DNA from: Candidatus Tenderia electrophaga
GTDB taxonomy: Bacteria > Pseudomonadota > Gammaproteobacteria > Tenderiales > Tenderiaceae
Direction of reading: 5' to 3'
Assembly (NCBI GenBank): GCA_001447805.1
Contig: CP013099.1
Coordinates: 3,109,181 to 3,173,180 of the forward strand
DNA: 64,000 nt
Positions within the stretch are counted from its first letter, which is position 1; each line of letters starts with the position of its first letter. Shown piece after piece: positions 35,863 to 53,078 of this stretch. Made by a program: the position numbers and the translations under genes. The notes under the pieces are model-generated. The model saw only the letters and a list, made by a program, of their open reading frames with translations, was not told where the DNA came from and did not search any database.

Positions 35863-36735
35863 ATGCCTTTGCACCAAATCTGCGCCGGTTGGACGCTCTC
35901 ACTCATGCTGCTCGGCGGCGTGGCCACTCCCTTTGCGGCGGCGCCGCGCGATGTCAGCCATTCCACCGATGCCGCGCTGCGGCTGGACTACCTCGGCAAA
36001 CTGCTCGATTCACGCAGCGGCCAACGCCTGGCGCAACACCCTGACGGCGCCATCCGCGGTCGGATTGAGGCCATGCTGGCCCAGGCCCGGGAGGCCATCG
36101 CCGGCGGCGACAATGACACGGCCGACGCGCTCACCAAGCAGGCGCTGGAGACCCTCATGAGCGCCGTGCGCGAACTCCCCGCAGACCCCGAAGAGACTGC
36201 CCGACACAAGGCGCGTTATGAAGAACTGCGCCGCGGCCTGGAAAAATTCAATTACGCCCAGGCGGCCAATCGGGAACGCTTTGCCGCACAGGCGAAGCAG
36301 GCCTCTGAACCCGATCACAGCCAGGTTAATAAACTTCTGGCGCTGGCCGATAGGGATGCGAAGGCGGGTGATTATGAACAGGCCGTAACGCGTTTGACCG
36401 AGGCCCAGTCCATCGTTACCAGCGCCTTACGGGGCATGCTCAATCACAAACAACTGGTCATCGAGCTGGACATCGGTACGCCGGAAAAAGAATACTTTTA
36501 CGAGTTGCGCCGCTATCAAGGCTATGAAGAGCTGATCCCGGTGGCCATTGAAACCAAACGACCGAACGAAATGGCGACACAGACCATGATTAAACTGGGC
36601 GAAAAGGCAAAATGGATGTCGGAGCAGGCACGCGGCAAGGCGATGCAGGGTGATTATGCCGTCGCCATTCGTATGATAATGGATGCCACCGATGTCGTTA
36701 AACAGGCACTCAGGGTGGTCGGCATCACCATGTAA
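35863..36735 (+). CDS. Exported α-helical protein of unknown function
   Basis: 290 residues: signal peptide MPLHQICAGWTLSLMLLGGVATPFAAA, then an almost wholly helical, charged body with heptad-like and TPR-like patterns (LLALADRDAKAGDYEQAVTRLTEAQSIVTSALRGML; QARGKAMQGDYAVAIRMIMDATDVVKQALRVVGI). The paired segments with …GDY..A…A… suggest helical-hairpin repeats. No family is named. Ribosome site GAGGACG before the ATG; it follows the LVIVD gene by 20 nt and is followed by the binding-protein gene, so it likely acts in the same periplasmic system. Confidence 0.8.
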   Translation: MPLHQICAGWTLSLMLLGGVATPFAAAPRDVSHSTDAALRLDYLGKLLDSRSGQRLAQHPDGAIRGRIEAMLAQAREAIAGGDNDTADALTKQALETLMSAVRELPADPEETARHKARYEELRRGLEKFNYAQAANRERFAAQAKQASEPDHSQVNKLLALADRDAKAGDYEQAVTRLTEAQSIVTSALRGMLNHKQLVIELDIGTPEKEYFYELRRYQGYEELIPVAIETKRPNEMATQTMIKLGEKAKWMSEQARGKAMQGDYAVAIRMIMDATDVVKQALRVVGITM

Positions 36736-36812
36736 GATGGACGCGGCGCGTGCTTTGGCATGATCGCCCGGCGACCGCATCAGGCCGGATGAAAATTTTT
36801 AAGAAGGGACGC

Positions 36813-37730
36813 ATGATTCGCTTCATTGCCACTCTGCTAATCGTTTTATTGGGGATGTTTACGTCGGCCGGGGCCGCTGAAACCAGCGCCAATCTGCTCA
36901 TCCTGGTTCCCAAGATCAACGCGGCCTATGACCGTGTCTTTGCCGAGATCGTCGCTGGTGTGGCGTCTCATGACGGCGTCACGCCAACCACTATGGCTCT
37001 GACCAATTCCACCGACGAGGAGGATATTCAGCGGGCCATCGATGCCGGCGAAGCCGACGCACTGATCGCTTTGGGGCATTCCAGTTATGACATCGCGCAG
37101 CAATTCGACGACCGGCTGCCCGTCATCCACGGCGGCATGATCATGACGCCCCAAGGGCAAAGCGGCATCAGCCTGGCGGGTTCCCCGGCCGAATTCTTCT
37201 CCCATCTGGGAATCATTGCGCCCACGGTAAAACGGGTGTTCACTGTGTATGGCGATCAAAACAGTGGCTGGCTCATCGACCTGGCCCAGCGCGAGGCTGA
37301 CAAGCGCGATATCGAGCTGATTGCCCTGGCCGCCAAAGATGTGCGCGACGCGGTGTATCGCATGCGCGATGTCCTCAATCAGGTGCGCGGCCCATCCGAC
37401 GGAATTTGGTTATTGCTCGACAAAGTGATGCCGGATCAAACCGTCTTGCCCATGGTATTAGAGGCGGCTTGGAAACAGAACGTGGTGCTATTTTCCAACA
37501 ACCCGTCGCATACCAAACGCGGGGCCCTGTTCGCCCTGTACCCCGATCATCACAACATGGGTTACGCCCTGGCGGAGTTGAGTCTGCAGCGCATCCAGTC
37601 AGAGCAGCCGCTGCTGCTACCCCTGACCAACCTCAAGGTGTCGGTGAACGAGCGTACCGCGTCCCATTTGGGCTTACGCTACTCCACTGATCAACTTGAA
37701 GGTTTCGACCTCATCTATCCCTTGAGATGA
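36813..37730 (+). CDS. Periplasmic ABC-type substrate-binding protein (ABC_sub_bind family)
   Basis: 305 residues from ATG 36813, chosen for the AAGAAGGGAC ribosome site; ATG 36789 is in frame. Signal peptide MIRFIATLLIVLLGMFTSAGAA, then a two-lobe fold: NLLILVPKINAAYDRVFAEIVAGVAS, ADALIALGHSSYDIAQQ, PVIHGGMIMTPQG, KRVFTVYGDQNSGWLIDLAQREADKRDIELIAL, VVLFSNNPSHTKRGALFALYPDHHNMGYALAEL. This matches the PF04392-type family. No permease or ATPase gene is nearby; its stop overlaps the start of the histidine kinase by 4 nt (ATGA). A ligand sensor feeding the kinase is therefore more likely than transport. Confidence 0.83.
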   Translation: MIRFIATLLIVLLGMFTSAGAAETSANLLILVPKINAAYDRVFAEIVAGVASHDGVTPTTMALTNSTDEEDIQRAIDAGEADALIALGHSSYDIAQQFDDRLPVIHGGMIMTPQGQSGISLAGSPAEFFSHLGIIAPTVKRVFTVYGDQNSGWLIDLAQREADKRDIELIALAAKDVRDAVYRMRDVLNQVRGPSDGIWLLLDKVMPDQTVLPMVLEAAWKQNVVLFSNNPSHTKRGALFALYPDHHNMGYALAELSLQRIQSEQPLLLPLTNLKVSVNERTASHLGLRYSTDQLEGFDLIYPLR

Positions 37731-39283
37731 GGACACTCAAGAGTATGAACAGGCAATCGGCACAATCCAAGACGAAGAGCTTTCGCGGTCAGCTGACCAC
37801 GATCTTTACCTTGGGCATCCTGGCGTTGGGCCTGGCCGGTGCCGTCTCATCCGCCTGGGTGACCAAGGTCCATATCGAGGGCCAGCTGTACGAGAACGGC
37901 CTGCAGGTGACCGAATCCCTGGCCAAACAGTCGGTGTTGGCATTGATCTACGACAGCCCGGAAAACGCCGAAGAGGCCACCGTCGCCGCGATGGGCTTTC
38001 CCGCTATCGAGCAGGTCGCCATCCTCGACATCAACGGCGGGGTGTTGCTGGTTAAGGGTGATCCGTCGGTGGACTACGACCTGTCGGCACTCAGCGAAGG
38101 AGTGACCTTGGTGAACGAAACTTTGGATTACTGGTTGTTCGGGGCGCCGGTCTTCATCCAACAAGAACAAGCGGCGGATCAATCGCCCTTGCTGCTCGAC
38201 ACCGAACAACAGCAGGAGCTGGTCGGCCGCGTGCTGGTCAGGAAGAGCAAGGAAAAGATCGGCCAGGTCTTTACTGCGGCCATCATTAACAATCTGGCCA
38301 TCGGCCTGCTGTTCGCGTTGGTGCTGCTCGCCATACTCCATCTCAGCTTTAATCGCCTGGTGACGCCCTTGGACAAGCTCGCCGCCGTCATGGGCCGCGC
38401 CAAGGAAGGCGATGTGGTCAAGGCCTACGCCAGCCTGGAGGGTCCGCGGGAGGTCACTGAAATCGCCCAGGCCTACAACACCATGATTGAGGCGCTGGCC
38501 CGGCACCAGGCGCAGTTGAAGCGCCACAACGAACTGCTGGAATACGAAGTCGAGGAGCGTACCCGCGATCTGGTCTACGCCCGTGACATGGCGATCCGCG
38601 CCAACCGCAACAAATCCCACTTCCTTTCCAACGTCAGTCACGAATTGCGTACACCGCTGCAGTCCATCCTCGGTTACAGCGACCTGATTCTGGAAACCCT
38701 GCCAGCCGAGCTGGCCGAGATTCACCGAGATATCGACACCATTGTACTAAATGCGGAAAGTTTGCTGCACATGATCAATTCAATACTGGATATGTCGAAA
38801 ATCGAGGCCGGGCGCATCGAACTCACTAAACAAGAGACTAATCTCGACGAACTGGTCGATGGCGTGATTGAGACTATCAAGCCTCTCATCACGCCCAACC
38901 AGAACACGCTCAAGCTGGAGCGACGGCTGATCAAGACGGTGGTCTACGTGGACGGCGACAAGCTGCGCCAAGTATTACTCAACCTGCTGGGCAACGCCGC
39001 CAAATTCACCGATAACGGCACCATACTTTTCAGCATGACGCAGAACGACAAGCTGCTCGAGTTTAAAGTGGAGGACAATGGCATCGGCATGAACCAAGAC
39101 CAGCTCGACCACATCTTTGAGCCGTTTTACCAGATTGACGGAGGCCATACGCGGCGCTATCAGGGTACCGGCCTGGGACTGGCCATTACCCATCAATTTT
39201 GTCATTTAATGAACGGGAACATCAAGGTACGCAGTGAGCCAAACCGGGGAACTCGATTTTATGTGCAGATTCCCTACGATTAA
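37727..39283 (+). CDS. Membrane sensor histidine kinase
   Basis: 518 residues: transmembrane helix 1 (about 24–46), a periplasmic sensing domain of about 140 residues (EGQLYENGLQVTESLAKQSVLAL…, CHASE-like), helix 2 (about 186–206), a HAMP-type linker and coiled coil, then the HisKA domain with phospho-acceptor H305 in FLSNVSHELRTPLQSILGYSDL, and the HATPase with LRQVLLNLLGNAAKFTDNG, VEDNGIGMNQDQLDHIFEPFYQIDGG and GTGLGLAITHQF. All catalytic boxes look intact. Start and binding-protein stop overlap (ATGA). The cognate regulator is most likely the next gene. The stimulus probably comes through the binding protein; this is inferred from context. Confidence 0.9.
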   Translation: MRTLKSMNRQSAQSKTKSFRGQLTTIFTLGILALGLAGAVSSAWVTKVHIEGQLYENGLQVTESLAKQSVLALIYDSPENAEEATVAAMGFPAIEQVAILDINGGVLLVKGDPSVDYDLSALSEGVTLVNETLDYWLFGAPVFIQQEQAADQSPLLLDTEQQQELVGRVLVRKSKEKIGQVFTAAIINNLAIGLLFALVLLAILHLSFNRLVTPLDKLAAVMGRAKEGDVVKAYASLEGPREVTEIAQAYNTMIEALARHQAQLKRHNELLEYEVEERTRDLVYARDMAIRANRNKSHFLSNVSHELRTPLQSILGYSDLILETLPAELAEIHRDIDTIVLNAESLLHMINSILDMSKIEAGRIELTKQETNLDELVDGVIETIKPLITPNQNTLKLERRLIKTVVYVDGDKLRQVLLNLLGNAAKFTDNGTILFSMTQNDKLLEFKVEDNGIGMNQDQLDHIFEPFYQIDGGHTRRYQGTGLGLAITHQFCHLMNGNIKVRSEPNRGTRFYVQIPYD

Positions 39284-39306
39284 AGGTTCTAAAACGGAAG
39301 CCGATC

Positions 39307-39321
39307 TTGTAGTCACTACAA
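39307..39321. promoter_or_regulatory. Dyad between the kinase and regulator genes
   Basis: TTGTAG–TCA–CTACAA, a perfect 6-bp dyad with a 3-bp centre, in the 118-bp gap before the regulator gene. It could be an operator or a weak RNA hairpin. The regulator has its own ribosome site AAGGGAG. Confidence 0.35.
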
Positions 39322-39401
39322 ATTCCTTCGATTCGGCGGAAACGCACCATGGTGGTCCGGCAGGATAATAACTCTAAAGGAAGAGAAAGGGAGATTCGAA
39401 G

Positions 39402-41888
39402 ATGAATCAACATATACTGATCGTAACGCTCGATCGGGAGCAGGGAAGCGCAATCAAACAGGTATTGAAGGGCGCCGGATTCAGCAATCTGGCGATCGCG
39501 CATAGCAGTCAGGCGGCCATAAACCTGCTTACTGATCATCCTGTTGACGCCATCGTCAGCGCCGTCGATCTCGAACCCGTGGATGGCTGGCGCTTCGCCC
39601 GGATCATACGCTCCGGCGCCCTTGCGGTGAAACTCCACGTCCCCATCGTCATGATCTCCGACGGTTTCAGCGAACGCATCGCCCAAGCGACCTCCAAGGC
39701 GTTCCAGGTGAATCGTTTTATTCCCTTTGAGAAATTTCACACCCTGCCGTCTATTCTCAGTGACTTGTTGCGCCAGGAAAAGCCCGGCGTGCCAAAATCA
39801 AGCCTACTGGTGGTGGAGGATTACCTCGACACGGTGGAGTTGGTTAAGCGTGTGCTCGGCAGCCGTTTCGATATCGACGTCGCGACTACCGGCAAGCAGG
39901 GTTTGCGGGCCTGGACGGAGAAACGACACGACCTGGTGCTACTCGATGTGATGCTGCCCGAGATGGCCGGTAACGATGTGTTGAAGGAAATCCTCAAGGA
40001 ATCACCGCGCCAATCGGTAGTGATGATGACCGCACAGTCCACCCCCGAGCGCGCCGCCGAACTGATCATCGACGGGGCCGTGGATTACATCTCCAAGCCG
40101 TTTCGCGCCGACCAGCTTCGACAAGTATGTGAAATCGCCGTGCAGCGCGAAGACTTCATCGTCAGCAACGAGGAGTTTTCCTCCCACGAGGAGGCGCTTT
40201 ACCAGGAAAAGGAGCTGGCGCAAATTACCCTGCAGTCCATCGCCGACGGCGTTATCCGCACCAATGCCAAGGGTGAAATCGAATTCATGAATCCGGTGGC
40301 GGAACACGTCACCGGCTGGAGTTTTGAGCACGCCCGCAACAAACCATTTCGCGACATATTGCGCTGCTTCAACGACAGCAATCAGGCCGCCACCAATCCC
40401 GTTGAGATCACCTTAAATAACCAGTCGACGCTGTATGGCACACAGGATGTCACCTTCATGGATCGCGATGGCGCCAAGTTGAAGCTCGACCATGTCACCT
40501 CGCCGATCAAGAACCGACATGAGGAAATCATCGGCACGGTTATGGTGTTTCGAGACATCACCGAGGAACATGAATTAGCCCGCCAACTCGACTACCAGGC
40601 GAAGCACGACGCGCTAACCGGACTCACTAACCGCGCCGCCTTCGAGGACTATCTGGAAACGGTGATCGAGAAGTTGCCCCAGAGCGATGAAGTGCATGCG
40701 CTTTGTTATATCGACCTCGACCAATTCAAAGTGGTGAACGATACCTGCGGTCATATCGCCGGCGACCAACTGTTGCAACGTATTTCATCGATCATTCTAA
40801 ACAAAATCCGCAAAGACAGCGATGTGCTGGCACGCTTCGGCGGCGATGAGTTTGTGCTCATGCTGTCGGACTGCCCTATCGAGCGCGCCACGCGCGTTGC
40901 TGAAGATATCTGCCAAGAGATCCAGGAATACCGATTCGTTTATGACTACAAGACCTTTGCCATAGGCGCCAGTATCGGGGTTGTGTCACTGACCTCGGAA
41001 ATCGCCAATACCAACGACGCCTTGCGCATGGCCGATAACGCCTGTTACGTCGCCAAAGAAAAAGGCCGCAACCGTGTCCATTTGTACCACATCGATGACC
41101 AGGAGCTGGTGCGCCGTAGCGGCGAGATGCACGTGGTATCGAAAATCAACCACGCTCTGGAGAACGAAGGGTTTTCACTGTTCTTTCAGGAGATAATGGC
41201 GCTCAAAGGCGATAGAGAAAAGCACAAGCACATAGAAATCCTGATCAGGATGAAAGATGAGGGAAATGACTGGATTACTCCCGGGTTTTTTCTGCCCGCC
41301 GCTGAACGCTACAGCGTGGCGCCCAAAATCGATAAGTGGGTGATAAGCTCGGTCATGAAGTGGCTGTCGGAAAACCGGCGCTGCTTGGACGCGCTTGAAA
41401 TGTGTTCAATAAACTTATCAGGACTGTCGTTCTGTAATGAAGGGTTTTCTGAATTCGTTAAAAATGAAATTCAGGCGCGTAACATACCGGCTGAGAAGAT
41501 CTGTTTCGAGATCACCGAAACCGCCGCTATTCGCAACATGCATGATGCCTCCGACTTTATAAACACCATGCGTGGGTTCGGTTGCAGCTTCGCACTCGAT
41601 GATTTCGGCAGCGGCATGTCGTCCTACGCCTATCTCAAGGCATTGCCTGTCGACTATCTCAAGGTCGACGGCATGTTCGTCAAGGATATTATGATCGACC
41701 CCATCGACAAGGCCATGGTCAAATCGATTAACGAGATCGGGCACGTATTCGGCCTTAAGACCATCGCCGAATTCGTCGAGACCGACGACATCATTGATGA
41801 GCTGTGCATGCTGGGTGTGGATTACGCTCAAGGGTATGCGATCAGCAAGCCTGCGCCCATAAGCGCTCTGGCATCCAGTTGCACTTGA
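39402..41888 (+). CDS. Response regulator with REC–REC–PAS–GGDEF–EAL domains
   Basis: 828 residues, a multi-domain c-di-GMP enzyme. REC1 (1–125) is degenerate: Ala54 stands where the phospho-Asp belongs and the late Lys is replaced (NRFIPFEKF). REC2 (132–245) is intact with D182 in LVLLDVMLPEMAG and the SKPF Lys. A PAS domain (about 268–390) follows. GGDEF is intact at 480–484 (ARFGGDEF), with the product-inhibition RxxD changed to K471–x2–D474. In the EAL domain the signature reads EIL at 612–614, but E612, N671, E703, D733–D734, K754, E790 and Q810 are present, so phosphodiesterase activity is plausible. Follows the histidine kinase by 118 nt. Confidence 0.92.
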   Translation: MNQHILIVTLDREQGSAIKQVLKGAGFSNLAIAHSSQAAINLLTDHPVDAIVSAVDLEPVDGWRFARIIRSGALAVKLHVPIVMISDGFSERIAQATSKAFQVNRFIPFEKFHTLPSILSDLLRQEKPGVPKSSLLVVEDYLDTVELVKRVLGSRFDIDVATTGKQGLRAWTEKRHDLVLLDVMLPEMAGNDVLKEILKESPRQSVVMMTAQSTPERAAELIIDGAVDYISKPFRADQLRQVCEIAVQREDFIVSNEEFSSHEEALYQEKELAQITLQSIADGVIRTNAKGEIEFMNPVAEHVTGWSFEHARNKPFRDILRCFNDSNQAATNPVEITLNNQSTLYGTQDVTFMDRDGAKLKLDHVTSPIKNRHEEIIGTVMVFRDITEEHELARQLDYQAKHDALTGLTNRAAFEDYLETVIEKLPQSDEVHALCYIDLDQFKVVNDTCGHIAGDQLLQRISSIILNKIRKDSDVLARFGGDEFVLMLSDCPIERATRVAEDICQEIQEYRFVYDYKTFAIGASIGVVSLTSEIANTNDALRMADNACYVAKEKGRNRVHLYHIDDQELVRRSGEMHVVSKINHALENEGFSLFFQEIMALKGDREKHKHIEILIRMKDEGNDWITPGFFLPAAERYSVAPKIDKWVISSVMKWLSENRRCLDALEMCSINLSGLSFCNEGFSEFVKNEIQARNIPAEKICFEITETAAIRNMHDASDFINTMRGFGCSFALDDFGSGMSSYAYLKALPVDYLKVDGMFVKDIMIDPIDKAMVKSINEIGHVFGLKTIAEFVETDDIIDELCMLGVDYAQGYAISKPAPISALASSCT

Positions 41889-41896
41889 TCGGTCTG

Positions 41897-43798
41897 CTAC
41901 GAGGTGGCGTCGACATTGTCGGACGCGCGTCTTGAAGTCGTGGTCCCACGCCGCTTACGCCGTCGATCAAGGGCGCTAACTCTAACACCCATCGGCGGGG
42001 GCTCCTCGGGATCAATATAGACATCGAGCACTGTCGGGACGCTGGTGGATAATACCCGCCCAAAATCAAACTGATCAAGTTCCTGTCGATTGCGAATAGT
42101 GAACCCTTCCGCACCCATGGCGCGCGCCACGGCGGCGAAATCGACTCTCGGTAATTGATAACCGATAGGCTCGGCGCCAGTTAGCCGCTGCCCATGCTTA
42201 ACCATGCCAAAAGCTTCGTCATTTAGTACAACAAACACAACGGACAGACGCTCAGCAACTGCCACTGTAATCTCCTGTCCGCTCATCAACATGGAACCGT
42301 CCCCTGTTATCGCCACCACAGGGCCATTAGTAGTTGCAGAGGCGACACCAATAGCATTACCAATCGCCCAAGTCATAGCGCCGAAAGCGATACCAATTCG
42401 GAAACTACCGCTACTTCTTAAATGGAGATAATGGATGGCCCAGCTCCATGCATTACCGGTGTCAATGACAACTCGCGCATTTTGCGGCAATGATTTGCCA
42501 AGCTGTTGCATCAGCAGCTGTGGCTTTACGGCAGCTTGATCCCAAGGTAACGACAAGGTGTCCGGTGTAAGCTTGTTTTCGTGATAACGTTTCATTGGGA
42601 AACTTAACCCACCGTGTGTAGCAAAAGTCAGTGGAGGGCTCTTTTCACGACATACTTCGGCGCTTATCGCCACCTTAATATCATCAGTTAGTTTTTTAAA
42701 AATCATCGCCACATCGCCATAGACATGCAGCCGCGCCATCGGTGACTGAGAAAAATTGTCCTCCACGGAGTCGATATGTACCAGCTTGTAGTTTAGCAAT
42801 GCTAATTTGTCCCAAGTGGATGTTGACAACTCGTCCAACCTACTGCCGACCGCAACCAATACGTCCATTTCCGGATCCAACAGAGTTTGGCGTGCGCTGT
42901 CATGACCGGCGAAACCGAAAACACCACGGTATAACGGGTGATAGGCGTTCATCCAACTTTTTCCGGAAGGCGTTGTCACGACCGCTGAATTCACGATTTC
43001 CGCAAACTCGGCAATAGGATTTATTGCTCCCCCGCCGCAACCACCGCCGGCCAAAACTACGATTTTTTTTGCCTTCTCGACGATCTCTACTAGTTTTTCA
43101 TAACTTGTATCATCGATAACGGCTCTGGGTTGAATCAGCCGTTCAATTTCATAGCTCGGCTGGTGATGTGCACATTCACATTCAAGAATATCCTTGGGAA
43201 TACTTATATGGACCGGGCCCTGTGGCGCCTGAAAGGCTTTCGATATCGCTTTTATCAGTTTCCCCTCGAGCTGGGCCGGATGAGAGACGAGGGTATTGAA
43301 TCGAGTCAAATGGGAAAACATGCCGACAATATCCACACCCGCATCGGAGGAGTCTTGTAAGGGCATGCGGCCAAAATCGCGCAACGCCGTTTGTGGCGTA
43401 ATTACCAAAATTGGATTTCGTTCCACGTAGGCAGAGGCGACGCCGGTAGCGAGATTTGTGGCGCCGGGACCCGTGGTTGAACAGCATACTCCCAGACTGC
43501 CTGTTTCTCTGGCATAGCCGGCGGCCATAAAGGCTGCACCGGACTCATGCCTGGTGATAACGAGCTTGATACCGTCGGGATGATAGCGGGAATGACGAGC
43601 AAGTGCATCGAATAGGGGCTCAATGGCGGCCCCAGGCACACCGAATATCCGCCTTATACCAAGCGTATAAAGATAATTGATAATCAGATCTGCGTAAGTG
43701 TGCATTGCTGTGACATCGCCACCACTAATATTCGATTGATCTGTAGGGTTATCAGCTACCATAGCCGCGCCTGCAGCCAGACCAAAGCGCGTAGCCAT
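41897..43798 (-). CDS. Acetolactate-synthase-like TPP enzyme (copy 1)
   Basis: 633 residues from ATG 43798; a GTG at 43807 and an ATG at 43705 (MHTYADL…) are alternatives. The three TPP-enzyme domains are present: N-terminal with IFGVPGAAIEPLFDALARH and the catalytic Glu in ITRHESGAAFMAAGYARE; middle domain GVFGFAGHDSARQTLLDPEMDVLVAVGSRLDE; C-terminal TPP site GDGSMLMSGQEITVAVAERLSVVFVVLND. No regulatory subunit (ilvN-like) is adjacent, so it is not an ordinary acetolactate synthase. Decarboxylation of a 2-oxo acid followed by acyl transfer is inferred from the family. It is paralogous to the gene at 50813–52675. Last gene of the minus cluster, 167 nt after the dehydrogenase. Confidence 0.85.
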   Translation of the reverse strand: MATRFGLAAGAAMVADNPTDQSNISGGDVTAMHTYADLIINYLYTLGIRRIFGVPGAAIEPLFDALARHSRYHPDGIKLVITRHESGAAFMAAGYARETGSLGVCCSTTGPGATNLATGVASAYVERNPILVITPQTALRDFGRMPLQDSSDAGVDIVGMFSHLTRFNTLVSHPAQLEGKLIKAISKAFQAPQGPVHISIPKDILECECAHHQPSYEIERLIQPRAVIDDTSYEKLVEIVEKAKKIVVLAGGGCGGGAINPIAEFAEIVNSAVVTTPSGKSWMNAYHPLYRGVFGFAGHDSARQTLLDPEMDVLVAVGSRLDELSTSTWDKLALLNYKLVHIDSVEDNFSQSPMARLHVYGDVAMIFKKLTDDIKVAISAEVCREKSPPLTFATHGGLSFPMKRYHENKLTPDTLSLPWDQAAVKPQLLMQQLGKSLPQNARVVIDTGNAWSWAIHYLHLRSSGSFRIGIAFGAMTWAIGNAIGVASATTNGPVVAITGDGSMLMSGQEITVAVAERLSVVFVVLNDEAFGMVKHGQRLTGAEPIGYQLPRVDFAAVARAMGAEGFTIRNRQELDQFDFGRVLSTSVPTVLDVYIDPEEPPPMGVRVSALDRRRKRRGTTTSRRASDNVDATS

Positions 43799-43965
43799 CG
43801 TTATCACTTCACAATAGCAAAAGAGGTTTTATTAAGCCAATATGGATTGATGAGTAAATGGGTGGGCGGTTGCCTGAACACATACAAAAAACATATAAAA
43901 AGCGGCTCCTAGGCGACGAACCATCGATGCAATGCATCCTACGAACAACGAATTCGACCGTAAAG

Positions 43966-44685
43966 CTAAATTGAATCCACTCCACCATCAACATGCCACA
44001 CTGCACCTGTTACATACTTGGCTTCAAGCTGGGCAAGGATGACATGAGCAACTTCTTCAGGCGTTCCGAAACGCCCTAACGGTATTGTTGCCTTTTGATG
44101 CGCACGAACAGCTTCAATTTGTTCCTCTGATAACCCTAGCTTGGATATAAGGGGAGTATCGATAGCCCCTGGAGAAACACAGTTCATACGTATCCCTTGA
44201 GGCGCGAGCTCTACGGCTAGACTTCTGGAAAATCCGTCCATTGCACCTTTTGTAGCAGCATAAAGTGATGCATTCGGCAGCCCGTTATTAGTGACAGCCG
44301 AAGAAATATTGGTTATTGCACCAGATCGTTGAGCGAGTGCGGGCACGAGGAACTGGATTAACATAAGCGGGCCACGTATATTTGTACTGAAAAAAACGTC
44401 ATAGTCCTCGTCCGTATGTGCGGTAATAGGCATAAATTTCGCTACCGCTGCATTATTGACTAGCGCATTTAATCCAGTGCTAGCAAAGGCATCAGCCAAA
44501 CGCAGTAGGTCATCTGTCTTCTGCATGTCAGCTACGATACCAGTAACACCTAAGGCTTCTTCTGCTACAGCAACAGCCTCACGATTTCGTCCGCTTATCG
44601 TGACATCATATCCGCGTGCCTTTGCTAATGCCGCGGTTGCATACCCAATTCCTGAATTCCCACCGGTGATCAATATATTTTGCAT
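43966..44685 (-). CDS. Short-chain dehydrogenase/reductase
   Basis: 239 residues, classical SDR: nucleotide loop TGGNSGIGYATA, NNAAVAKF, Ser in NISSAVTN, catalytic Tyr–x3–Lys in YAATKGAMDGF, and PGAIDTP. The basic residue after strand 2 (ISGRNRE) suggests NADPH. Its likely role is reduction of a keto group made by the neighbouring TPP and citrate-synthase-like enzymes, which is inference only. It lies 16 nt after the citrate-synthase-like gene B and shares its low GC content. Confidence 0.9.
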   Translation of the reverse strand: MQNILITGGNSGIGYATAALAKARGYDVTISGRNREAVAVAEEALGVTGIVADMQKTDDLLRLADAFASTGLNALVNNAAVAKFMPITAHTDEDYDVFFSTNIRGPLMLIQFLVPALAQRSGAITNISSAVTNNGLPNASLYAATKGAMDGFSRSLAVELAPQGIRMNCVSPGAIDTPLISKLGLSEEQIEAVRAHQKATIPLGRFGTPEEVAHVILAQLEAKYVTGAVWHVDGGVDSI

Positions 44686-44701
44686 GAAAACACTCCTATA
44701 T

Positions 44702-45547
44702 CTAAGCTGTTTGTTCGGGTACTGATCTATGTTCCTTGCCTTCGTAATTTATATCATCGCACTTTAAAGGAAGGAATGATCCGGGCGTTCTTGCATTAGC
44801 ATCTAGATAGCATGCAGTTACGCCACTCGCCACTAATGTCGAACAACTTATATACACTTGTTCTGCAGTAAATCCGATATCTGATAGGAATGCGGATACA
44901 TACCCGTTTATATTCATACTTTCGCTAAAATGATCATTTAGATACTCCTCAACCTTGTACGCTAGTGCGAGATGTTCACCTATTTCAAAACCCAACTCCT
45001 CCGTAACCTTCTCCATCGCACCGACTCGCTCATCGCCCTTGGCAATAGGTCGGGCGTATCCGGTAATCACCGGCGTTGCACCGACCCGCTGACTTGCTGC
45101 TTTTACGAGTTCTTCAACCGACACTCCTGACTTATATTCTTTGAGCGCGTTCTGGATGAAGTTTACACCGTCAATCAAAGTATGCGATCCATAGGCCCGT
45201 GACTCCATTGCCATATTTCCACTGCTGGTTGCGGCCACAGCAGATACCTTCATTTCAGCACCCAAGGCACCAATGTGATTACACCAAATCCTAGGGTCGG
45301 GCCAACTCAGGCATATGTGAAACGCTTCCATCCAATCAGCAAGGCGCCTATCAGGCAATTTCCCGAGCGAGTTAAGCATCATTACCTGCATATACGAAAC
45401 ATTCCCGACCAGATCATCCATCATAGAATAGCCATGATTTAACACGGCTTTACCAATCTTCCACCCTCCTTTCCGGCTGAAAATCTTGTTTCGGCGCTGA
45501 TCCCAAAAAGATGTGTCGTTAATCGCTTTCAATGATGTAGTCCTCAT
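44702..45547 (-). CDS. Small citrate-synthase-like protein B
   Basis: 281 residues of the short citrate-synthase/citryl-CoA-lyase-like type. Helical N-terminus GYSMMDDLVGNVSYMQVMMLNSLGKLPDRRLADW, the SWPDPRIWCNHIGALGAE block, and AYGSHTLIDGVNF where the first catalytic His would lie. The second His motif (normally GHxxY…DPR) reads GYARPIAKGDERV at 163–175 with Arg in place of His, and the usual Asp region reads MNINGYVSAFL. True citrate synthase activity is therefore doubtful. Its ATG lies within the 3' end of gene A (29-nt overlap) in another frame. GC content is much lower than that of gene A (20/60 in 44881–44940). Confidence 0.75.
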   Translation of the reverse strand: MRTTSLKAINDTSFWDQRRNKIFSRKGGWKIGKAVLNHGYSMMDDLVGNVSYMQVMMLNSLGKLPDRRLADWMEAFHICLSWPDPRIWCNHIGALGAEMKVSAVAATSSGNMAMESRAYGSHTLIDGVNFIQNALKEYKSGVSVEELVKAASQRVGATPVITGYARPIAKGDERVGAMEKVTEELGFEIGEHLALAYKVEEYLNDHFSESMNINGYVSAFLSDIGFTAEQVYISCSTLVASGVTACYLDANARTPGSFLPLKCDDINYEGKEHRSVPEQTA

Positions 45548-46346
45548 CGGAAATAAAAGGCATCGCCGTCAGTGGCTTGTTGGCCAACTCGGCGCCGTGG
45601 GCTAAAAGCCCGGGGGCGCTGATGATTTGATATACACCCGCGGCGGCACGGGGAGGAAACCCCAGATCAGTCAGTGCGGCCGCCACCACACCTGTTGCCA
45701 ACCAGCCCATTCCGTGCTCTGCCAAACCAGCAGCAAACTGCTGCCCCCAGTGCAAAGCAGCGCTGGCGGCGGGCATCTGCGCCAGGTGGTCGGCAATGCT
45801 TGCACTGATCAGATCTATGCCGTTGTAATAACTACCGAAGCCAGGGGCGATATGCCAATCGCCTTCGTCCGGACGATCAGGATTGGCCATTAATAGCTGC
45901 AATACATCTTCAACCGGCTTACGCTGGTTCTTACGCAGAAATCGCATCGCCTCTTCGAGAGTCCCCGCCGCATTATGTGTGCCGCTCAAAGTCGTCAGAG
46001 CAATGGGCAATATCAAGGCGGGATCGGTCTTGCCGACGCCTGCGTTCATGGCGGCTCGGGTAGCCGGATGGCGCGGGCCGGGATTGATAAAAGCGACCAT
46101 CAACGCGTCCAGCAGCTGAGCCTCTGCGGTCGTCGGGAGTTCGCCACGGAATAGTAAATACAGCATATCAGCGAAGCTGCGCTTCTGAACAAGCTCTAGG
46201 AGATCATACCCATGGCAGCGACACTGTGCCGCAATATAGGGGTTTTCGGCCGATGGCAGTTCTTGCCATATCCGCGTAGCGGTGCGCTCGGCGTAAATAT
46301 CATCGCGCCGCTGCACCTGCGCTGAAGGCTTATCTGATTTAATCAT
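45519..46346 (-). CDS. Small citrate-synthase-like protein A
   Basis: 275 residues. The fold is marked by GYDLLELVQKRSFADMLYLLFRGELPTTAEAQLLDALMVAF, RHPATRAAMNAGVGKTDP and the C-terminal ATGVVAAALTDLGFPPRAAAGVYQIISAPGLLAHGAEL. His124 (SGTHNAAGTLEEAM) fits the first catalytic His, but the second His motif is GFGSYYNGID (169–178) without His, and the usual late Arg is Ala (ISAPG). It starts inside the stop codon of TonB receptor 1 (ATGA) and overlaps gene B by 29 nt. It may pair with B as a heteromer; substrate unknown. GC is high (38/60 in 45661–45720), unlike gene B. Confidence 0.75.
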   Translation of the reverse strand: MIKSDKPSAQVQRRDDIYAERTATRIWQELPSAENPYIAAQCRCHGYDLLELVQKRSFADMLYLLFRGELPTTAEAQLLDALMVAFINPGPRHPATRAAMNAGVGKTDPALILPIALTTLSGTHNAAGTLEEAMRFLRKNQRKPVEDVLQLLMANPDRPDEGDWHIAPGFGSYYNGIDLISASIADHLAQMPAASAALHWGQQFAAGLAEHGMGWLATGVVAAALTDLGFPPRAAAGVYQIISAPGLLAHGAELANKPLTAMPFISDEDYIIESD

Positions 46347-48469
46347 TCTCTCAATCGATGCTCCGCTTCTAGGAAAACACTCCGCCCGGGCAACGGGTAA
46401 TCGCCGGGAATGATGCCATTGCTTGGCTCGCGATTATCCGCATCAAAAGCATTTTTTATACTCACACCGAACGCCCAGTAGTTACTTAAAGGCTGATAAC
46501 GTACGGCCAGATCAACCGTCGAGTTATCCGCGATAGGAGGACGTGGATCACCCTTGGCCCGACTTCTATCCATTACCCAATTGGCCTGCCCATACAATAC
46601 CCATGGAAGAGACGGCTGCCAAGCCGCTGCCAAAAACAATTGCCGTCTCGGCGCGTTGGGGATCACTGTATCGTCTTGTGCATCTTCAGAAAACTGGAGC
46701 GCAAAATTACTCTTCAATTGCAATGCGTCGGTTGCATACCATTTCGCCTCCATCTCCAGGCCATGGCCATTCTGCGCATGAGTGTTCTGCGCTGTCCCGT
46801 TGACGAATTCAATCAGCTCGTCGGCATGGTATGTGAAAAGCGTCAGGATCGCGATCCGCCGGGGACCCGGCCGATAATCGAAGACCAACTCAATCATATC
46901 GATGGTCTCGGGCTCCAAGTCAGGATTTCCTGCCACCACTGGGTTATTTTCGAAATAAAGTTCGGTCAGGCTGGGCGCGCGAAACGCTCGACCGTAAAGC
47001 AACTTGGTTGTCAGGAAATAATCGCGTTTCCAAACCAAGGCAAGACGAGGATTGATGGTTTCACCGAAGTCGGAATAATTGTCATACCGGACACCCGCGG
47101 TCATCTCCCAGTCAGCGGCGAATCGCCATTCATCCTGTAATGAAAGATAACGCACGGTTCGGGAACGCTGTTTCACAAATATGTACGGCGTACCGGTGAC
47201 ATCGGTCAATGTGCCGTCGATTGAGCTTTCGCTGCCGTTTATAACGCCCGGCCCGAAATTTTTCGTTTCAGTGGCTGTAAACGAATCTTGATCCATGCCG
47301 ATAGCGCTTCGAAGACGATGGCCATGCCATCCCTCATACAGCCCAGCGACCTCCAGCCGGATTTCAGTTTGTTCGCCGCCCGGATTGCCCAGCACGCCGT
47401 CGGTAAAACGAACGGTACCGACAGGTACACAGCCAGGATAAATGCACAAATTTCCATCTGCCGCGACCTGCACCTCGGTCCCTGGAGGGAGTATCCGATA
47501 GCGAACCTCTTGATCGAAAACGCGGTAGGACACGCTCGAATTCAATCGCCAATCCTCAAACGATTCGTCATCTTTATAGCCTATCGCTAACGTGTAGTGA
47601 TCATTTTCCTGTTCTCCGGCCGGATCCAGTGCTTGGAACGCACCCGGGCCGACTCCACCATCCTGGAGATTCCAGGCGTTAAGCCAAAAAGACCATTTCT
47701 TTTTCTCGAGGTTAATTGAGCTGTTCAATAGTTTATAACGGCTATCTAATGGGCCCGGCGCGAGACTGGCATTCGTGCCAAAACGCGCGTCCAGATCAGT
47801 TTGAAAATCGCTCTCGATAATCCTGCTTCGATCTCCGTCGCTGCTGATATATTCCAGGCTCAGACCGATATCCCAGCCGCCTAGCTCGCCGCCGTACTGA
47901 ATCCACCCATCTCTGGCTCCGAAGGAGCCAAAACGAACACCGACTATATGGCCGTCGATATCCAGCCTTTCCTTGGTGATAATATTAATCACGCCGGCGA
48001 ATGCATCCGCTCCGTATACTGCCGAGCCCGGTCCGCGGATTACTTCAATCAAGGCGATATTTTCCACCGGCAACCGGAACAAGGGGGGTCTGGAACCAGT
48101 GATGAGCTGGTTAAATGAAATACCATTCACCAGCAACAATACCTGTGAATTCCAATCGGTGTGGATTCCGCGAATGGAATAGATGCTGCTGTTGCGAGCG
48201 AATGAAAGCGAAACATGCAGACCGGGGACGGTTTCCAGCACCTCTGCCAGGGTGCGGGCGCCGCTGGCCTTGATCTCATCGGCGCGGATCACGGTTGCCA
48301 CGGAGGGCGCCAGATGAATAGCTTTATAGGTGCCGGTGGAGATGCTGACGATCTCTTCCGAGGGATAGTAGAGGTTCAGCTCACTCTCATGGGTGGCGAA
48401 GGTCAATGCATAGGAAGGCGAACAGAACATCCCCAGCAGCGTAGCCAATGCTGGAAAACGGCGTCGCAT
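46343..48469 (-). CDS. TonB-dependent outer-membrane receptor 1
   Basis: 708 residues with a signal peptide (MRRRFPALATLLGMFCSPSYA). TonB-box-like EEIVSIST, then the plug: IHLAPSVATVIRADEIKASGARTLAEVLETVPGLHVS, YSIRGIHTDWNSQVLLLVNG, IEVIRGPGSAVYGADAFAGVINIITK. The barrel ends NPDLEPETIDMIELVFDYRPGP … and the last residues are HRLRE without the usual terminal aromatic. Plug and barrel are strongly similar to receptor 2 throughout, so the two arose by tandem duplication. Ligand unknown. The stop overlaps the start of citrate-synthase-like gene A. Confidence 0.93.
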   Translation of the reverse strand: MRRRFPALATLLGMFCSPSYALTFATHESELNLYYPSEEIVSISTGTYKAIHLAPSVATVIRADEIKASGARTLAEVLETVPGLHVSLSFARNSSIYSIRGIHTDWNSQVLLLVNGISFNQLITGSRPPLFRLPVENIALIEVIRGPGSAVYGADAFAGVINIITKERLDIDGHIVGVRFGSFGARDGWIQYGGELGGWDIGLSLEYISSDGDRSRIIESDFQTDLDARFGTNASLAPGPLDSRYKLLNSSINLEKKKWSFWLNAWNLQDGGVGPGAFQALDPAGEQENDHYTLAIGYKDDESFEDWRLNSSVSYRVFDQEVRYRILPPGTEVQVAADGNLCIYPGCVPVGTVRFTDGVLGNPGGEQTEIRLEVAGLYEGWHGHRLRSAIGMDQDSFTATETKNFGPGVINGSESSIDGTLTDVTGTPYIFVKQRSRTVRYLSLQDEWRFAADWEMTAGVRYDNYSDFGETINPRLALVWKRDYFLTTKLLYGRAFRAPSLTELYFENNPVVAGNPDLEPETIDMIELVFDYRPGPRRIAILTLFTYHADELIEFVNGTAQNTHAQNGHGLEMEAKWYATDALQLKSNFALQFSEDAQDDTVIPNAPRRQLFLAAAWQPSLPWVLYGQANWVMDRSRAKGDPRPPIADNSTVDLAVRYQPLSNYWAFGVSIKNAFDADNREPSNGIIPGDYPLPGRSVFLEAEHRLRE

Positions 48470-48580
48470 GGTGCTATTACTACCCCCTTGTTATATCGAG
48501 AACCCATAAATTACACGCATATATTTCATGTTCTGAGCCCTGCTTAAGGCAAAGCCTCTTGATGGATACGAGCCCACGAA

Positions 48581-50713
48581 CTAACGTATATGAAATACCA
48601 CTTCCAAAAAAACACTGCGCCCTTCAAGGGGATAATCACCGGGAATGGTCCCGTCGCTGGGCTCACGGGCATCCTCATCGAATACATTCTTGGCGCTGAG
48701 GCCAAACTGCCAGTGGCGGTTATCCGGTTGATGTCTGAGAAACAGATCCACCGTAGTATAGTCGTCAATTGCAGGGCGAGGGTCTGTACTCGCACGCGTG
48801 CGGTCGGCTACCCAATTTGCCTGGCCATACAGTGACCATCTTTCGATCATGCGCCAATCGGCTGCGACAAACAGTTGCCGCCGCGGGGCATTGGGAACCA
48901 CGGCGCCGCTATTGGCGTCCTCGGAGTACTGCAGGGCGAAATTTCCTTTTATCTGCAATTCATTGCTGGCATGCCATTCGGCTTCGAATTCAAGCCCGTG
49001 GCCTTTCTGGTTGTGGCTGTTCTGTGCTGTGCCATTCACAAATTCAATCAAGTCGTCCGCCTCGTACGCATATAAACCGAATATGGTTTCCACATCGAAA
49101 GACGGGCGATAGTCGACGACCAACTCAATCATATCGATGGTCTCGGGTTCTAAATCGGGATTACCAATTGTTACCGGATTATTTTCAAAATATAGTTCCG
49201 TTAAGCTCGGTGCTCGAAAAGCGCGCCCGTAAAGAAGCTTAGTTGTAAGATTATAGTCAGTCGCCCATACCAAAGCCAAACGGGGATTGGTGGTTTGACC
49301 AAAATCAGAGTAATCATCGTGGCGAATTCCTGCGGTTAGTTCCCAGTCACGTCCGACCCGCCATTCATCTTGCAACGACAAGTAGCGCACAGTACGCGAC
49401 GCGTTTTGAACAAAAACATAAGGAGTATCGGTAACGTCTGATAGCCCCCCATCGATCGGGCTCACGGAACCATCAATAACACCTGGACCGAAGTTCTTTG
49501 TCTCTACAGGCTCGAACTCATCATGGTCGGCGCCAACCGCAAGTCGTAAGCGATGGTCCTGCCAACCTTCAAAAATTCCGGCCACTTCGAAACGCGTTTC
49601 GGTTTGTTGGCCACCCGGGTTACCCCAGACCCCGTCTGTAAAAGTCACTAGACATGGAGGTGAACTGCAACTGGGCGGTGTGAACAAATTTCCGTCTGCA
49701 CCAATCGGCACAACAGCTCCCGGCGGTAGAATTCGGTACGTAGATTGTTGATCAAGAACACGATATGAAAGGCGCGTCTCCAGTAGCCAGCTTTCAGTCA
49801 GATCGTCGTCCGTATAGTCCAATACCAGTGTGTACTGGTCGTTCTCTTGTTCGCCCGCCGGGTCGATCGCCTGAGCCACACCAGGTCCGACACCAGCATC
49901 GTTTAGAACCCAACTATTGAACCAAATCGACCATTTTTCCCGTGTTAACGTGACGGACGTATTCAATAAGTCGTATCGTGTTTCTAATGGTCCAGGCGCG
50001 AGACTAACGTCGGTACCGAATTGAGTGTCTAGCGTGGTCTGGAAATCCGAGGTGACGATACGGTCGTGGTCACCGTCGCTGGTGCTATACTCGAAGCTTC
50101 CGGCAACTGCCCAACCATTGAATTCGCCGCCATACTGCAACCAAGTCTCTTGCGTATCAAAGGAGCCTGTGCGTGCACCTGCGACCAGTCCATCGATATC
50201 GGCGCTGTCTTTGGAAATTATATTGATGACGCCTGCAAATGCATCGGCACCAAACACCGCTGAACCCGGACCCCGAATTACCTCTACACGGGCAATATTT
50301 TCTACCGGCAGACGAAACAATGGTGGTCGTGAGCCTGTGATGAGATCATTAAAAGGCAAGCCGTTGACAAGTAGAAGCACTTGCGGATTCCAATCTGTAT
50401 GGATACCGCGAATGGAAAAAATACTGCTATTGCGAATCGACGACTTAGACACATGTACGCCCGGAACCGTTTCCAGGACCTCATCTAGAGTACGCGCCCC
50501 CATCGCATTGATTTCTTTCGCAGTAATAACGCTGGCCACCGAAGGTGCCAAGTGGATAGGTTTGCTGGTCCCGGTCGCGATGCTAATCATTTCTTCGTCT
50601 TCATAAAGCAGCATAAGGTCTTCTTCGACCGCGGCTAGCTGCTGCGCGTGTACAGAAGGCACCAACAACAACGAAGCCACGGTAGCAATTGCAGTAACTT
50701 TGATATTAGGCAT
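48581..50713 (-). CDS. TonB-dependent outer-membrane receptor 2
   Basis: 710 residues: signal peptide MPNIKVTAIATVASLLLVPSVHA, TonB-box-like EEMISIAT, plug IHLAPSVASVITAKEINAMGARTLDEVLETVPGVHVS and VEVIRGPGSAVFGADAFAGVINIISK, barrel ending VFLEVVFHIR. The plug is nearly identical to receptor 1, while signal peptides and parts of the barrel (for example the Cys-containing TPPSCSSPPCLVTF loop) differ, suggesting ligand divergence. Ribosome site GAGGACGTGA. GC is slightly lower than in receptor 1. It follows the TPP enzyme copy 2 by 99 nt; a TAGTGG/CCACTA dyad (50732–50750) lies in that gap. Confidence 0.93.
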   Translation of the reverse strand: MPNIKVTAIATVASLLLVPSVHAQQLAAVEEDLMLLYEDEEMISIATGTSKPIHLAPSVASVITAKEINAMGARTLDEVLETVPGVHVSKSSIRNSSIFSIRGIHTDWNPQVLLLVNGLPFNDLITGSRPPLFRLPVENIARVEVIRGPGSAVFGADAFAGVINIISKDSADIDGLVAGARTGSFDTQETWLQYGGEFNGWAVAGSFEYSTSDGDHDRIVTSDFQTTLDTQFGTDVSLAPGPLETRYDLLNTSVTLTREKWSIWFNSWVLNDAGVGPGVAQAIDPAGEQENDQYTLVLDYTDDDLTESWLLETRLSYRVLDQQSTYRILPPGAVVPIGADGNLFTPPSCSSPPCLVTFTDGVWGNPGGQQTETRFEVAGIFEGWQDHRLRLAVGADHDEFEPVETKNFGPGVIDGSVSPIDGGLSDVTDTPYVFVQNASRTVRYLSLQDEWRVGRDWELTAGIRHDDYSDFGQTTNPRLALVWATDYNLTTKLLYGRAFRAPSLTELYFENNPVTIGNPDLEPETIDMIELVVDYRPSFDVETIFGLYAYEADDLIEFVNGTAQNSHNQKGHGLEFEAEWHASNELQIKGNFALQYSEDANSGAVVPNAPRRQLFVAADWRMIERWSLYGQANWVADRTRASTDPRPAIDDYTTVDLFLRHQPDNRHWQFGLSAKNVFDEDAREPSDGTIPGDYPLEGRSVFLEVVFHIR

Positions 50714-50812
50714 TCACGTCCTCGTCGTCACTAGTGGATGACCCCCACTAATGGTTCCGCGCCTCAGAGTAGCAGCACATTGGCTTACGCAAGAATCTAC
50801 TAGTCTCATTCA

Positions 50813-52675
50813 TCACGCTCTATTCTGCTGCCTTTTTAGTGTGTTAACCCGGGCTCCCATGGGTGGTAAGGCTTCCGGATCTATATGTATATCCAGCAAT
50901 GCCGGGCGCCCGGTTTGGCATAATTTCTTGATATCGATGCGCTGCAAATCGTGTAGGGTGCGCACTGTATAGCCCTGCGCGCCCACGCTTCTAGCCATCA
51001 TGGCGAAATCAACCGGGGGTAAGTCGTAGCCGATCGCCTCGGCGCCGCTTAGGCGCTGGCCATGTTTGATCATACCTAGTGCCTGGTCGTTAAATATGAC
51101 GAAAATCACCGCTAGCTGATGTGTGACGGCGACACTTAACTCCTGGCCGCTCATCAGATAACTGCCGTCACCGGTGATACAGACCACGGGATGTTTGGCA
51201 TTGCCCAATGCCGTGCCAACTGCTGCGCCAACGGCCCATCCCATAGCGCCAAAGGTGAAGCTGCTGCGCTGTACACCGACGTTATCCAGAAACAGGTAAT
51301 GGGTAGCCCAAGAAAACGCATTACCGGTATCGATGACAAAACGAGTATCTCTGGGAAAGCGTTGAGCTAGCTCACTCATTAGGCGTTGCGGCTTGAGCGG
51401 TGAGCTTGTATCAGCAACGGTTTCCGGTTCATAGACTTCTACCTGGCCCGGTAAATAGTCGGTGCTTGTCTGCTTGAATTCCTGGCGCGCCATCGGGCAA
51501 ATGGCATTTTTACGGTCGGTAGTATTTAAGATGTGATCTTTATGTAGGCTGGCGAAGATAGTCCTGACATCCCCTGACAAGTGCAGGCACGCCATAGGCG
51601 TACGAGCAAAATCTTCTGGCGAAGCCGAAACATGCACGAGTTTACTACTCATGAGTTGTTTGTCCCAACCACTGGTGGACAATTCCCCCATAGCTGTGCC
51701 CACTGCCAAAATCAGATCGACATCTTCGGTGGCAAGCGTTTCATATGCGCTGGGGTGACCAGCAAAACCGAATACACCGCGATAAAGCGGGTGATAGCCA
51801 TTGACCCAGCCTTTGCCTGATGGAGTGGTAACAATTGGCGTATTGGTCAATTCTGCATAGGATGTAATGATGTCTATGGCATGGCGACATCCTCCACCTA
51901 AAAACAGCACCTGTTTTTTTGACTGCCCTATTGCGCTGACCAAAGCCTGATAGGCTTCGTCATCCATGGAGCGCGGTTGGCGAAACAAATGAGCCACTTG
52001 GTAACCACAGGTATCGCCTTTGACCGGTGCATTTAGGATATCCATCGGAATACTGAGATGGACAGGTCCACGTGGCCGGCGAAAGGCATTGAGTAGGGCG
52101 GTATATAGCTTTCCTTCAAGCTGATCGGGGTGAGACACCAGGGCGTTGTATTGGGTGCAATGTTCAAACATGCCGACAATATCGATGGCATCGCTGGACG
52201 ACTCTTGGAACCCGCCTTTACCGAAAAACGGCAGCGCCGTCTGAGGTGTGATGACCAACATGGGAGTACGGTCGGCGTAGGCCGAAGCGACCCCGGTAAT
52301 CAGATTGGTCGCACCGGGCCCGGTGGTGGCACAACAAACGCCGAGTCTACCTGTTTCACGTGCATAGCCGTCGGCCATGAAGGCGGCCCCGGCTTCGTGA
52401 CGGGCGATGATCGGTTTGATATGGGGTTTGATGTCTCTTTGACGCATGGGCACCAGACTGTTAACCGCCAACTGTCGTGTGGCATCCTCCGCCGGCCGGC
52501 GCAAATGCCGCGCCAAGGCGTTATACAGCGGTTCGATACCGCCGCCGGGGATGCCGAAAATGTATTCAACGTCGATCTGAACCAGATAGCTGACGATCAA
52601 ATCGGCGTACGTGAACGGCTGCGCCGCCACGGACGCAGGCGCAGGCGTGTCTATTACCTGTGTAACAGAATCCAT
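50813..52675 (-). CDS. Acetolactate-synthase-like TPP enzyme (copy 2)
   Basis: 620 residues from ATG 52675, which has GCGAGAGATTCC before it; the GTG at 52702 is less likely. Catalytic Glu94 in IIARHEAGAAFMADGYARE; IFGIPGGGIEPLYNALARH; TPP site GDGSYLMSGQELSVAVTHQLAVIFVIFND; substrate region MIKHGQRLSGAEAIGYDLPPVDFA. Compared with copy 1 it has an extra ~19 residues before the catalytic Glu (around RRPAEDATRQLAVNSLVPM). No small regulatory subunit nearby. First gene of the minus-strand cluster; the promoter presumably lies in 52.68–52.9 kb. Confidence 0.85.
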   Translation of the reverse strand: MDSVTQVIDTPAPASVAAQPFTYADLIVSYLVQIDVEYIFGIPGGGIEPLYNALARHLRRPAEDATRQLAVNSLVPMRQRDIKPHIKPIIARHEAGAAFMADGYARETGRLGVCCATTGPGATNLITGVASAYADRTPMLVITPQTALPFFGKGGFQESSSDAIDIVGMFEHCTQYNALVSHPDQLEGKLYTALLNAFRRPRGPVHLSIPMDILNAPVKGDTCGYQVAHLFRQPRSMDDEAYQALVSAIGQSKKQVLFLGGGCRHAIDIITSYAELTNTPIVTTPSGKGWVNGYHPLYRGVFGFAGHPSAYETLATEDVDLILAVGTAMGELSTSGWDKQLMSSKLVHVSASPEDFARTPMACLHLSGDVRTIFASLHKDHILNTTDRKNAICPMARQEFKQTSTDYLPGQVEVYEPETVADTSSPLKPQRLMSELAQRFPRDTRFVIDTGNAFSWATHYLFLDNVGVQRSSFTFGAMGWAVGAAVGTALGNAKHPVVCITGDGSYLMSGQELSVAVTHQLAVIFVIFNDQALGMIKHGQRLSGAEAIGYDLPPVDFAMMARSVGAQGYTVRTLHDLQRIDIKKLCQTGRPALLDIHIDPEALPPMGARVNTLKRQQNRA

Positions 52676-53078
52676 TGGAATCTCTCGCTTTTTACAATCC
52701 ACCCTGGACTCATATCGGGCGATTCACATTAAGGTTTAATAATTTCATAACGTTTCATCAGCGGTGACTAATAGTGTCAACCAGATCGGGTAGCTGGATG
52801 CGCTTGGGTGGTTGGATGAAACGCTTGGGGAATTTAATGACCGGAGGGAAAAGTACGGTCGGTGGCGATGACCTGAGGATTTAGGCCTGCCCGCTGCGGC
52901 TGGAAACATCGTCTTGATCAAATTCACCGGTCCATCCTTGTTTCGGTGTGCTACTAATCAATTTGCCGGTGCCGGCGCGGCGGCACGTCTTTCATTTATA
53001 CCAAATATAGCCCTGTAGTGCTTGTTACAATTTTTGTAATCATTCTCAAACGAAGCCCAAACGGTGGCTCTACAAAAG
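52676..53078. promoter_or_regulatory. Upstream region of the minus-strand cluster with repeats
   Basis: About 400 bp with no gene I accept. It holds an inverted repeat CGTTTCATC (52751–52759) / GATGAAACG (52815–52823), a direct repeat TGGATG(AAA)CGCTTGGG (52795–52808 and 52813–52829), and a minus-strand TTGACA (52780–52775) whose −10 would fall in the left arm of the inverted repeat but is poor. This looks like a regulated promoter; no start site can be fixed. Confidence 0.4.

Follow-up and report, generated by a model that had tools for sequence, protein, structure and literature searches.

A conserved gene set joining a ThDP enzyme, paired citryl-CoA-lyase paralogues and a TonB receptor to cyclic di-GMP output genes in Candidatus Tenderia electrophaga and relatives

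The cluster in the Tenderia window and its conservation

Seven genes on the minus strand of a 64,000-nt stretch of the Candidatus Tenderia electrophaga genome (the window) encode two thiamine diphosphate (ThDP or TPP) enzymes (T), two TonB-dependent receptors (R), two proteins of the citryl-CoA-lyase fold (CL1 and CL2) and a short-chain dehydrogenase/reductase (SDR). An earlier note, made from the sequence alone, had listed these open reading frames in their order, and all seven were found where it had placed them. ThDP enzyme a (T-a; 629 amino acid residues) is encoded at 50813–52702, followed by receptor a (48581–50713; 710 residues, plug and barrel), receptor b (46343–48469; 708 residues), CL1 (45519–46346), CL2 (44702–45547), the SDR oxidoreductase (43966–44685) and ThDP enzyme b (T-b; 41897–43807; 636 residues). 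CL1 and CL2 are the proteins that the note had called citrate-synthase-like A and B. The TPP, TonB, SDR and CL1 assignments were backed by Pfam. The ATGA junction between receptor b and CL1, and the 29 nt shared by the CL1 and CL2 reading frames (45519–45547), both pointed out before, proved exact. Receptors a and b are 66% identical and, judged from their sequences, are a local duplication; T-a and T-b are 50% identical, and all other genomes searched carry at most one T copy.

T-b converges on a plus-strand set at 36750–41888. This set comprises a periplasmic binding protein of family PF04392 (SBP; 36750–37730), which is not accompanied by an ABC permease or ATPase, a sensor histidine kinase (HK; 37727–39283; 518 residues) with two transmembrane segments flanking a periplasmic sCache-like domain, then HAMP, HisKA and HATPase, and a REC-PAS-GGDEF-EAL response regulator with cyclic di-GMP (c-di-GMP) output (39402–41888; 828 residues). 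The SBP and HK genes share an ATGA overlap. This part of the window is on the opposite strand and is not colinear with the enzyme genes. The earlier note had described seven genes; the conserved system extends beyond them on the plus strand.

The 369 genomes of the class were searched for CL2, T and SBP. CL2 was found in 43 of them, or 44 with two contig-end fragments counted. T, CL1 and R recurred as neighbour families of CL2, and clustering of all neighbours gave the SBP, the HK and a GGDEF-EAL protein as the next commonest. When 84,980 species genomes were scanned, 272 CL2 relatives came up, from which 80 named loci were kept, 40 of them with full 10-kb flanks; they include Collimonas, Rhodoferax, Dechloromonas, Gallionella, Pseudoduganella, Aquabacterium, Shewanella, Cycloclasticus, Porticoccus and Methylococcaceae. 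CL2 was present in all 80 kept loci and CL1 in 79, and the SDR accompanied the cluster in a minority (18/80). All six families occurred together in 35 of the 40 full-flank loci, in beta- and gammaproteobacteria. The usual order was T-(SDR)-CL1-CL2-R-SBP-HK, then GGDEF/EAL, with median gaps of 6 bp (T-CL1), −4 bp (CL1-CL2), 56 bp (CL2-R), 42 bp (R-SBP) and 10 bp (SBP-HK). Outside the class the set was present as well, as R-CL1-CL2-T-SBP-HK in some genomes and as T-CL1-CL2 alone in others. The conserved unit is T-(SDR)-CL1/CL2-R-SBP-kinase/c-di-GMP output, and the cluster is much bigger than seven genes. Its gene order repeats in dozens of genomes and is not due to chance. The single functional unit proposed before was supported, and the proposal that failure to co-occur elsewhere would speak against it was answered by a widely conserved gene set.

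Co-occurrence in the 369 genomes, which span many GTDB families, was tested for the same three families. T was a sharply bounded family, found in 48 genomes at E<1e-208 with the next matches above 1e-130; CL2 was found in 44 (contig-end fragments included) and SBP in 44 at E<1e-60. T and CL2 were shared by 41 genomes (Fisher p 1.7e-43), T and SBP by 39 (p 2e-38) and CL2 and SBP by 38 (p 4.8e-39), kinship being ignored in these values, so that independence is overstated. Pairwise distance correlations, of which the ranking alone was used, were 0.83 for CL1-CL2, 0.74 for CL1-R, 0.72 for CL2-R, 0.69 for SBP-HK and 0.44 for T-CL1; that the receptor distances track those of CL1/CL2 fits a receptor handling the CL product. 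The plasmid collection held no CL2, and the T matches there were distant acetolactate synthases only.

Some single loci and neighbouring features were also recorded. The cluster looks decayed in L066 (genome G034), where the T, receptor and CL2 frames are broken into several pieces, and at L105:7400-10870 the CL1-CL2 pair is tandemly duplicated behind T and the SDR. Directly upstream of the Tenderia SBP is a putative exported protein of 290 residues with no confident Pfam family (35863–36735, plus strand), for which only one homologue was seen, in a family relative (L059). No upstream riboswitch was found when the window and three loci were scanned with Rfam, so that no cofactor could be assigned in this way.

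The ThDP enzyme and the CL1-CL2 pair

The features of the acetohydroxyacid synthase (AHAS)-like ThDP superfamily were found in T: three TPP domains, as in T-a, with an invariant catalytic Glu103 and with GDG 511-513 and Asn538 at 99-100%. The T family lies near the enzymes BbmA (8x3x) and CsmA (8x3z), which were the best solved relatives both by sequence (298 bits vs 192 for E. coli AHAS I; 29-32% identity) and by fold (Z 41.6 vs about 38 for pyruvate oxidase/AHAS). Their entry title reads ‘ThDP-dependent HKA synthase’, in which we take HKA to be alpha-hydroxy-beta-keto acid, as the title does not spell it out. The TPP carboligation chemistry anticipated in the earlier note was supported, and an acyloin-type product is plausible. 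Two T proteins scored 301 and 300 bits against the acetolactate synthase model TIGR00118, below its cut-off of 538; a simple acetolactate pathway was rejected on this ground and since it leaves CL1/CL2 without explanation.

For CL1 and CL2, the degenerate citrate-synthase fold suggested before was supported by matches to the citryl-CoA lyase of Hydrogenobacter (6hxp). CL1 matched this structure by profile (E=6e-25) and as a structure model in Foldseek (E=1.8e-11), and CL2, which has no Pfam match, matched it by profile (E=3.5e-18) together with the NCBIfam citryl-CoA lyase models. The citryl-CoA lyase cut-off (NCBIfam PRK06224) was missed by both, with best scores of 88 bits for CL1 (cut-off 212) and 58 bits for CL2 (245). 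CL1 and CL2 thus share fold and family with 6hxp but differ from it in having lost GYGH and NVDG and in being two always-paired paralogous genes instead of one.

Residue columns were read over about 100 sequences of each protein. The catalytic GYGH His was gone from CL2 in 102/102 sequences, and in CL1 the column held Pro (79), Ser, Ala, Thr, Cys or Lys, His not being among the residues listed (99/99). In place of the catalytic NVDG Asp, CL2 has A/G/S/N/T/V and CL1 has T/S/P/V/L/A. CL1 keeps the AHxxE His and Glu (98-99%) and has lost the Asn and Arg; CL2 keeps the LNVDG Asn (98%) and the DPR Arg (100%), and its AHxxE His has become Cys (95%). The two Tenderia proteins follow this pattern, the AHxxE motif being kept in CL1, the N and R positions in CL2, and the catalytic His and Asp in neither. 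CL1 and CL2 are ancient paralogues, and their complementary losses, with both genes in 79/80 loci, suggest that they form a single obligate heterodimer whose composite site is new.

A reading as pseudogenes was dropped in view of the strong conservation of the CL1/CL2 residues. A Caulobacter iron paper naming a ‘citryl-CoA lyase’ was also set aside; the gene there is an unrelated citrate lyase beta-chain. An ordinary citrate synthase, full-length and above cut-off, is encoded at 16705–17805 (minus strand) of the same window, so that the tricarboxylic acid cycle does not need CL1/CL2.

Variant loci and the reception genes

Two loci lack CL1/CL2 and carry another enzyme with T. L183 is arranged as T-methyltransferase-R-SBP-HK, with an S-adenosylmethionine methyltransferase at L183:12506-13303 between T and R, and L190 as T-KAS III-R-SBP-HK, with a beta-ketoacyl-acyl carrier protein synthase III (KAS III) and a 131-residue open reading frame without Pfam match at L190:4691-6060. 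These swaps indicate that the varying part is a modifying or condensing enzyme, whereas T and the reception chain stay constant. The pairing of T with a KAS III-like enzyme is known from biosynthesis, in CqsB3/CqsB1 (PMC7466098). In the carquinostatin/neocarazostatin systems (CqsB3 + CqsB1, NzsH + NzsJ) the second enzyme is KAS III-like and there are no receptors or kinases (PMC7466098), whereas in the present set the second slot is mostly held by CL1/CL2, and by KAS III in L190. By this analogy, CL1/CL2 could hold the KAS III slot and use acyl-CoA.

A natural T-CL1 fusion of 886 residues was found in L043, and L186 is a receiver-only locus with R-SBP-HK and without T, CL1 or CL2. T occurs apart from the set in L199, L200, L207 and L208, beside FIST and/or histidine-kinase genes. 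The FIST-side T loci are L199:10581-12691, L200:10297-12440 and L207:7362-8516, two of which have a histidine kinase too; they give T a second setting for sensing, which may be intracellular. On a single contig of L189 an R-SBP-HK module is duplicated as its mirror image, which is probably an artefact of assembly.

The receptors resemble CirA/BtuB-type receptors. The PDB matches of the SBP were too weak to assign a ligand class; PF04392 proteins of solved structure bind aromatic amino acids. Single-protein kinases of about 1,340-1,520 residues occur in many loci, and the architecture HisKA-HATPase-REC-Hpt-REC-GGDEF-EAL was found in 4/6 long kinases scanned and in 4/4 of those of this length. 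Chemotaxis genes (MCP, CheW, CheR, CheA, CheB, CheD) adjoin the cluster in L034, L036, L037, L038, L039, L042, L044, L070 and L072. Among the recurrent neighbour families of the named loci, no conserved inner-membrane transporter, CoA ligase/transferase or DNA-binding regulator was found in the set.

A candidate make-and-sense system

The T-CL1/CL2-R-SBP-HK set may be a make-and-sense c-di-GMP signalling system; we give this reading, in which product, secretion and self-sensing are deduced from gene content, about an even chance. T and its partner enzymes would build an acyloin-type small molecule, which the CL1-CL2 heterodimer, with a CoA-binding fold and its citrate chemistry lost, would join to acyl-CoA or trim with it, and which the SDR, where present, would reduce. 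The product would leave the cell, be concentrated into the periplasm by the TonB receptor and be handed by the SBP to the kinase, whose REC/Hpt phosphorelay would set the c-di-GMP level, the net effect being an autoinducer or kin-recognition circuit. This reading draws on the gene order, the tight gaps and the co-occurrence in the 369 genomes, on a discrete T family closest to HKA synthases, and on the exchange of CL1/CL2 for KAS III or a methyltransferase while T, R, SBP and HK stay. It draws further on the T-CL1 fusion, the receiver-only locus, the kinase-GGDEF-EAL fusions and T beside FIST or kinase genes, and on the distances of CL1, CL2 and R being the most strongly correlated (0.72-0.83).

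By analogy, the set may work like ScrABC or RpfFCG, though it is a member of neither, as it was found to lack their defining synthases. As in ScrABC of Vibrio parahaemolyticus, where the gene for a signal enzyme stands in one operon with those for a periplasmic binding protein and the GGDEF-EAL output, a linked periplasmic SBP and GGDEF-EAL output are present; however, ScrA is a pyridoxal-phosphate enzyme and ScrABC has no TonB receptor, whereas the enzymes of the set are of the ThDP and CL1/CL2 kinds and not pyridoxal-phosphate synthases, and a TonB receptor and a phosphorelay from a histidine kinase go with them. In the diffusible signal factor system RpfF-RpfC-RpfG, too, a CoA-ester-fold enzyme stands next to a sensor kinase and a response regulator for c-di-GMP, but RpfF is a crotonase, RpfG is an HD-GYP protein and there is no SBP or TonB receptor; domain scans of the set found neither a crotonase-fold synthase nor an HD-GYP regulator. 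In LuxPQ a periplasmic binding protein gene is also paired with a membrane sensor kinase, although the LuxS synthase is unlinked, a TonB receptor is missing and the output is not a fused GGDEF-EAL protein. BbmA and CsmA, unlike T, are not known beside sensing genes.

The earlier note had preferred a metabolic pathway acting after TonB import. The SBP-kinase-GGDEF-EAL half, the CL1/CL2 swaps and the lack of a conserved transporter, CoA ligase or transcription factor point instead to synthesis plus sensing. It is doubtful that the set serves nutrient sensing and catabolism, with R importing an environmental compound, the SBP and kinase signalling its presence through c-di-GMP (settle and feed), and T/CL1/CL2/SDR degrading it. 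The TonB receptor is indeed a core member, ThDP lyases and the citryl-CoA-lyase fold are both known in cleavage reactions, and the receiver-only locus could use different breakdown enzymes; however, besides the missing transporter, CoA ligase/transferase and DNA-binding regulator, the lyase residues are gone from CL1/CL2, the swap partners KAS III and methyltransferase are typically biosynthetic, and the nearest T relatives are synthases. A metallophore system, in which the enzymes would produce a chelator of the hydroxycarboxylate or acyloin type, R would import its metal complex and the SBP and kinase would report metal supply, is unlikely. This chelator alternative, also raised before, was weakened by the best Fur-box upstream of the ThDP gene, which showed no enrichment over shuffled DNA (11.19 vs 10.89 matches of 19 in 85 loci, this promoter only), and survives as a rival through its CirA/BtuB-like receptors, the co-divergence of the receptor with CL1/CL2 and the TonB receptor beside biosynthetic genes that is typical of siderophore loci. 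A non-ribosomal peptide synthetase or an NRPS-independent siderophore (NIS) synthetase is absent from the 11 genes of the Tenderia locus, and none was recognised in the recurrent neighbour families, of which the annotation is incomplete; the gene set showed no recognisable exporter or inner-membrane metal transporter, and a c-di-GMP output is unusual at such loci.

Several points weigh against make-and-sense signalling itself. At least one component is missing in five full-flank loci, an exporter is not part of the conserved gene set, the SBP-kinase link has adjacency as its sole basis, and the distance correlations carry no species-tree control. TonB-dependent uptake is commoner for nutrients and metal complexes. 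Moreover, every canonical catalytic residue is lost in CL1/CL2, so that their chemistry is a guess and a regulatory role is possible. In that case they would be non-catalytic regulatory or assembly subunits of T, like the AHAS small subunit, sensing a CoA thioester, and the product would be the plain ThDP product. This is very unlikely: the residue losses, the T-CL1 fusion and the CSH domain of ACLY, argued to be allosteric and not catalytic (PMC10115795), agree with it, but each protein keeps its own near-invariant polar residues, beyond the needs of a passive scaffold, and T occurs in genomes without CL1/CL2.

No description of the cluster was found in the literature searched (mostly open-access papers), in agreement with the earlier remark that no named pathway has this combination. 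To our knowledge, the signal chemistry and reception route that this reading proposes are not known from any described autoinducer system. The set may represent a new signalling class, a tentative claim to which we give somewhat less than an even chance. Its signal would be made by a ThDP carboligase together with a citryl-CoA-lyase heterodimer put to new use, and a TonB receptor would actively collect it for an SBP and a c-di-GMP phosphorelay. If so, the circuit would be widespread in bacteria of soil, freshwater, marine and engineered systems (Collimonas, Dechloromonas, Rhodoferax, Gallionella, Cycloclasticus, Shewanella), and citrate-synthase-fold proteins would have been re-used as a non-citrate heterodimer. 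The partner-enzyme swaps (KAS III, methyltransferase) would then be lineage-specific signal dialects, receiver-only genomes would be eavesdroppers, and ‘orphan’ TonB-receptor/SBP/kinase modules would become assignable to a ligand.

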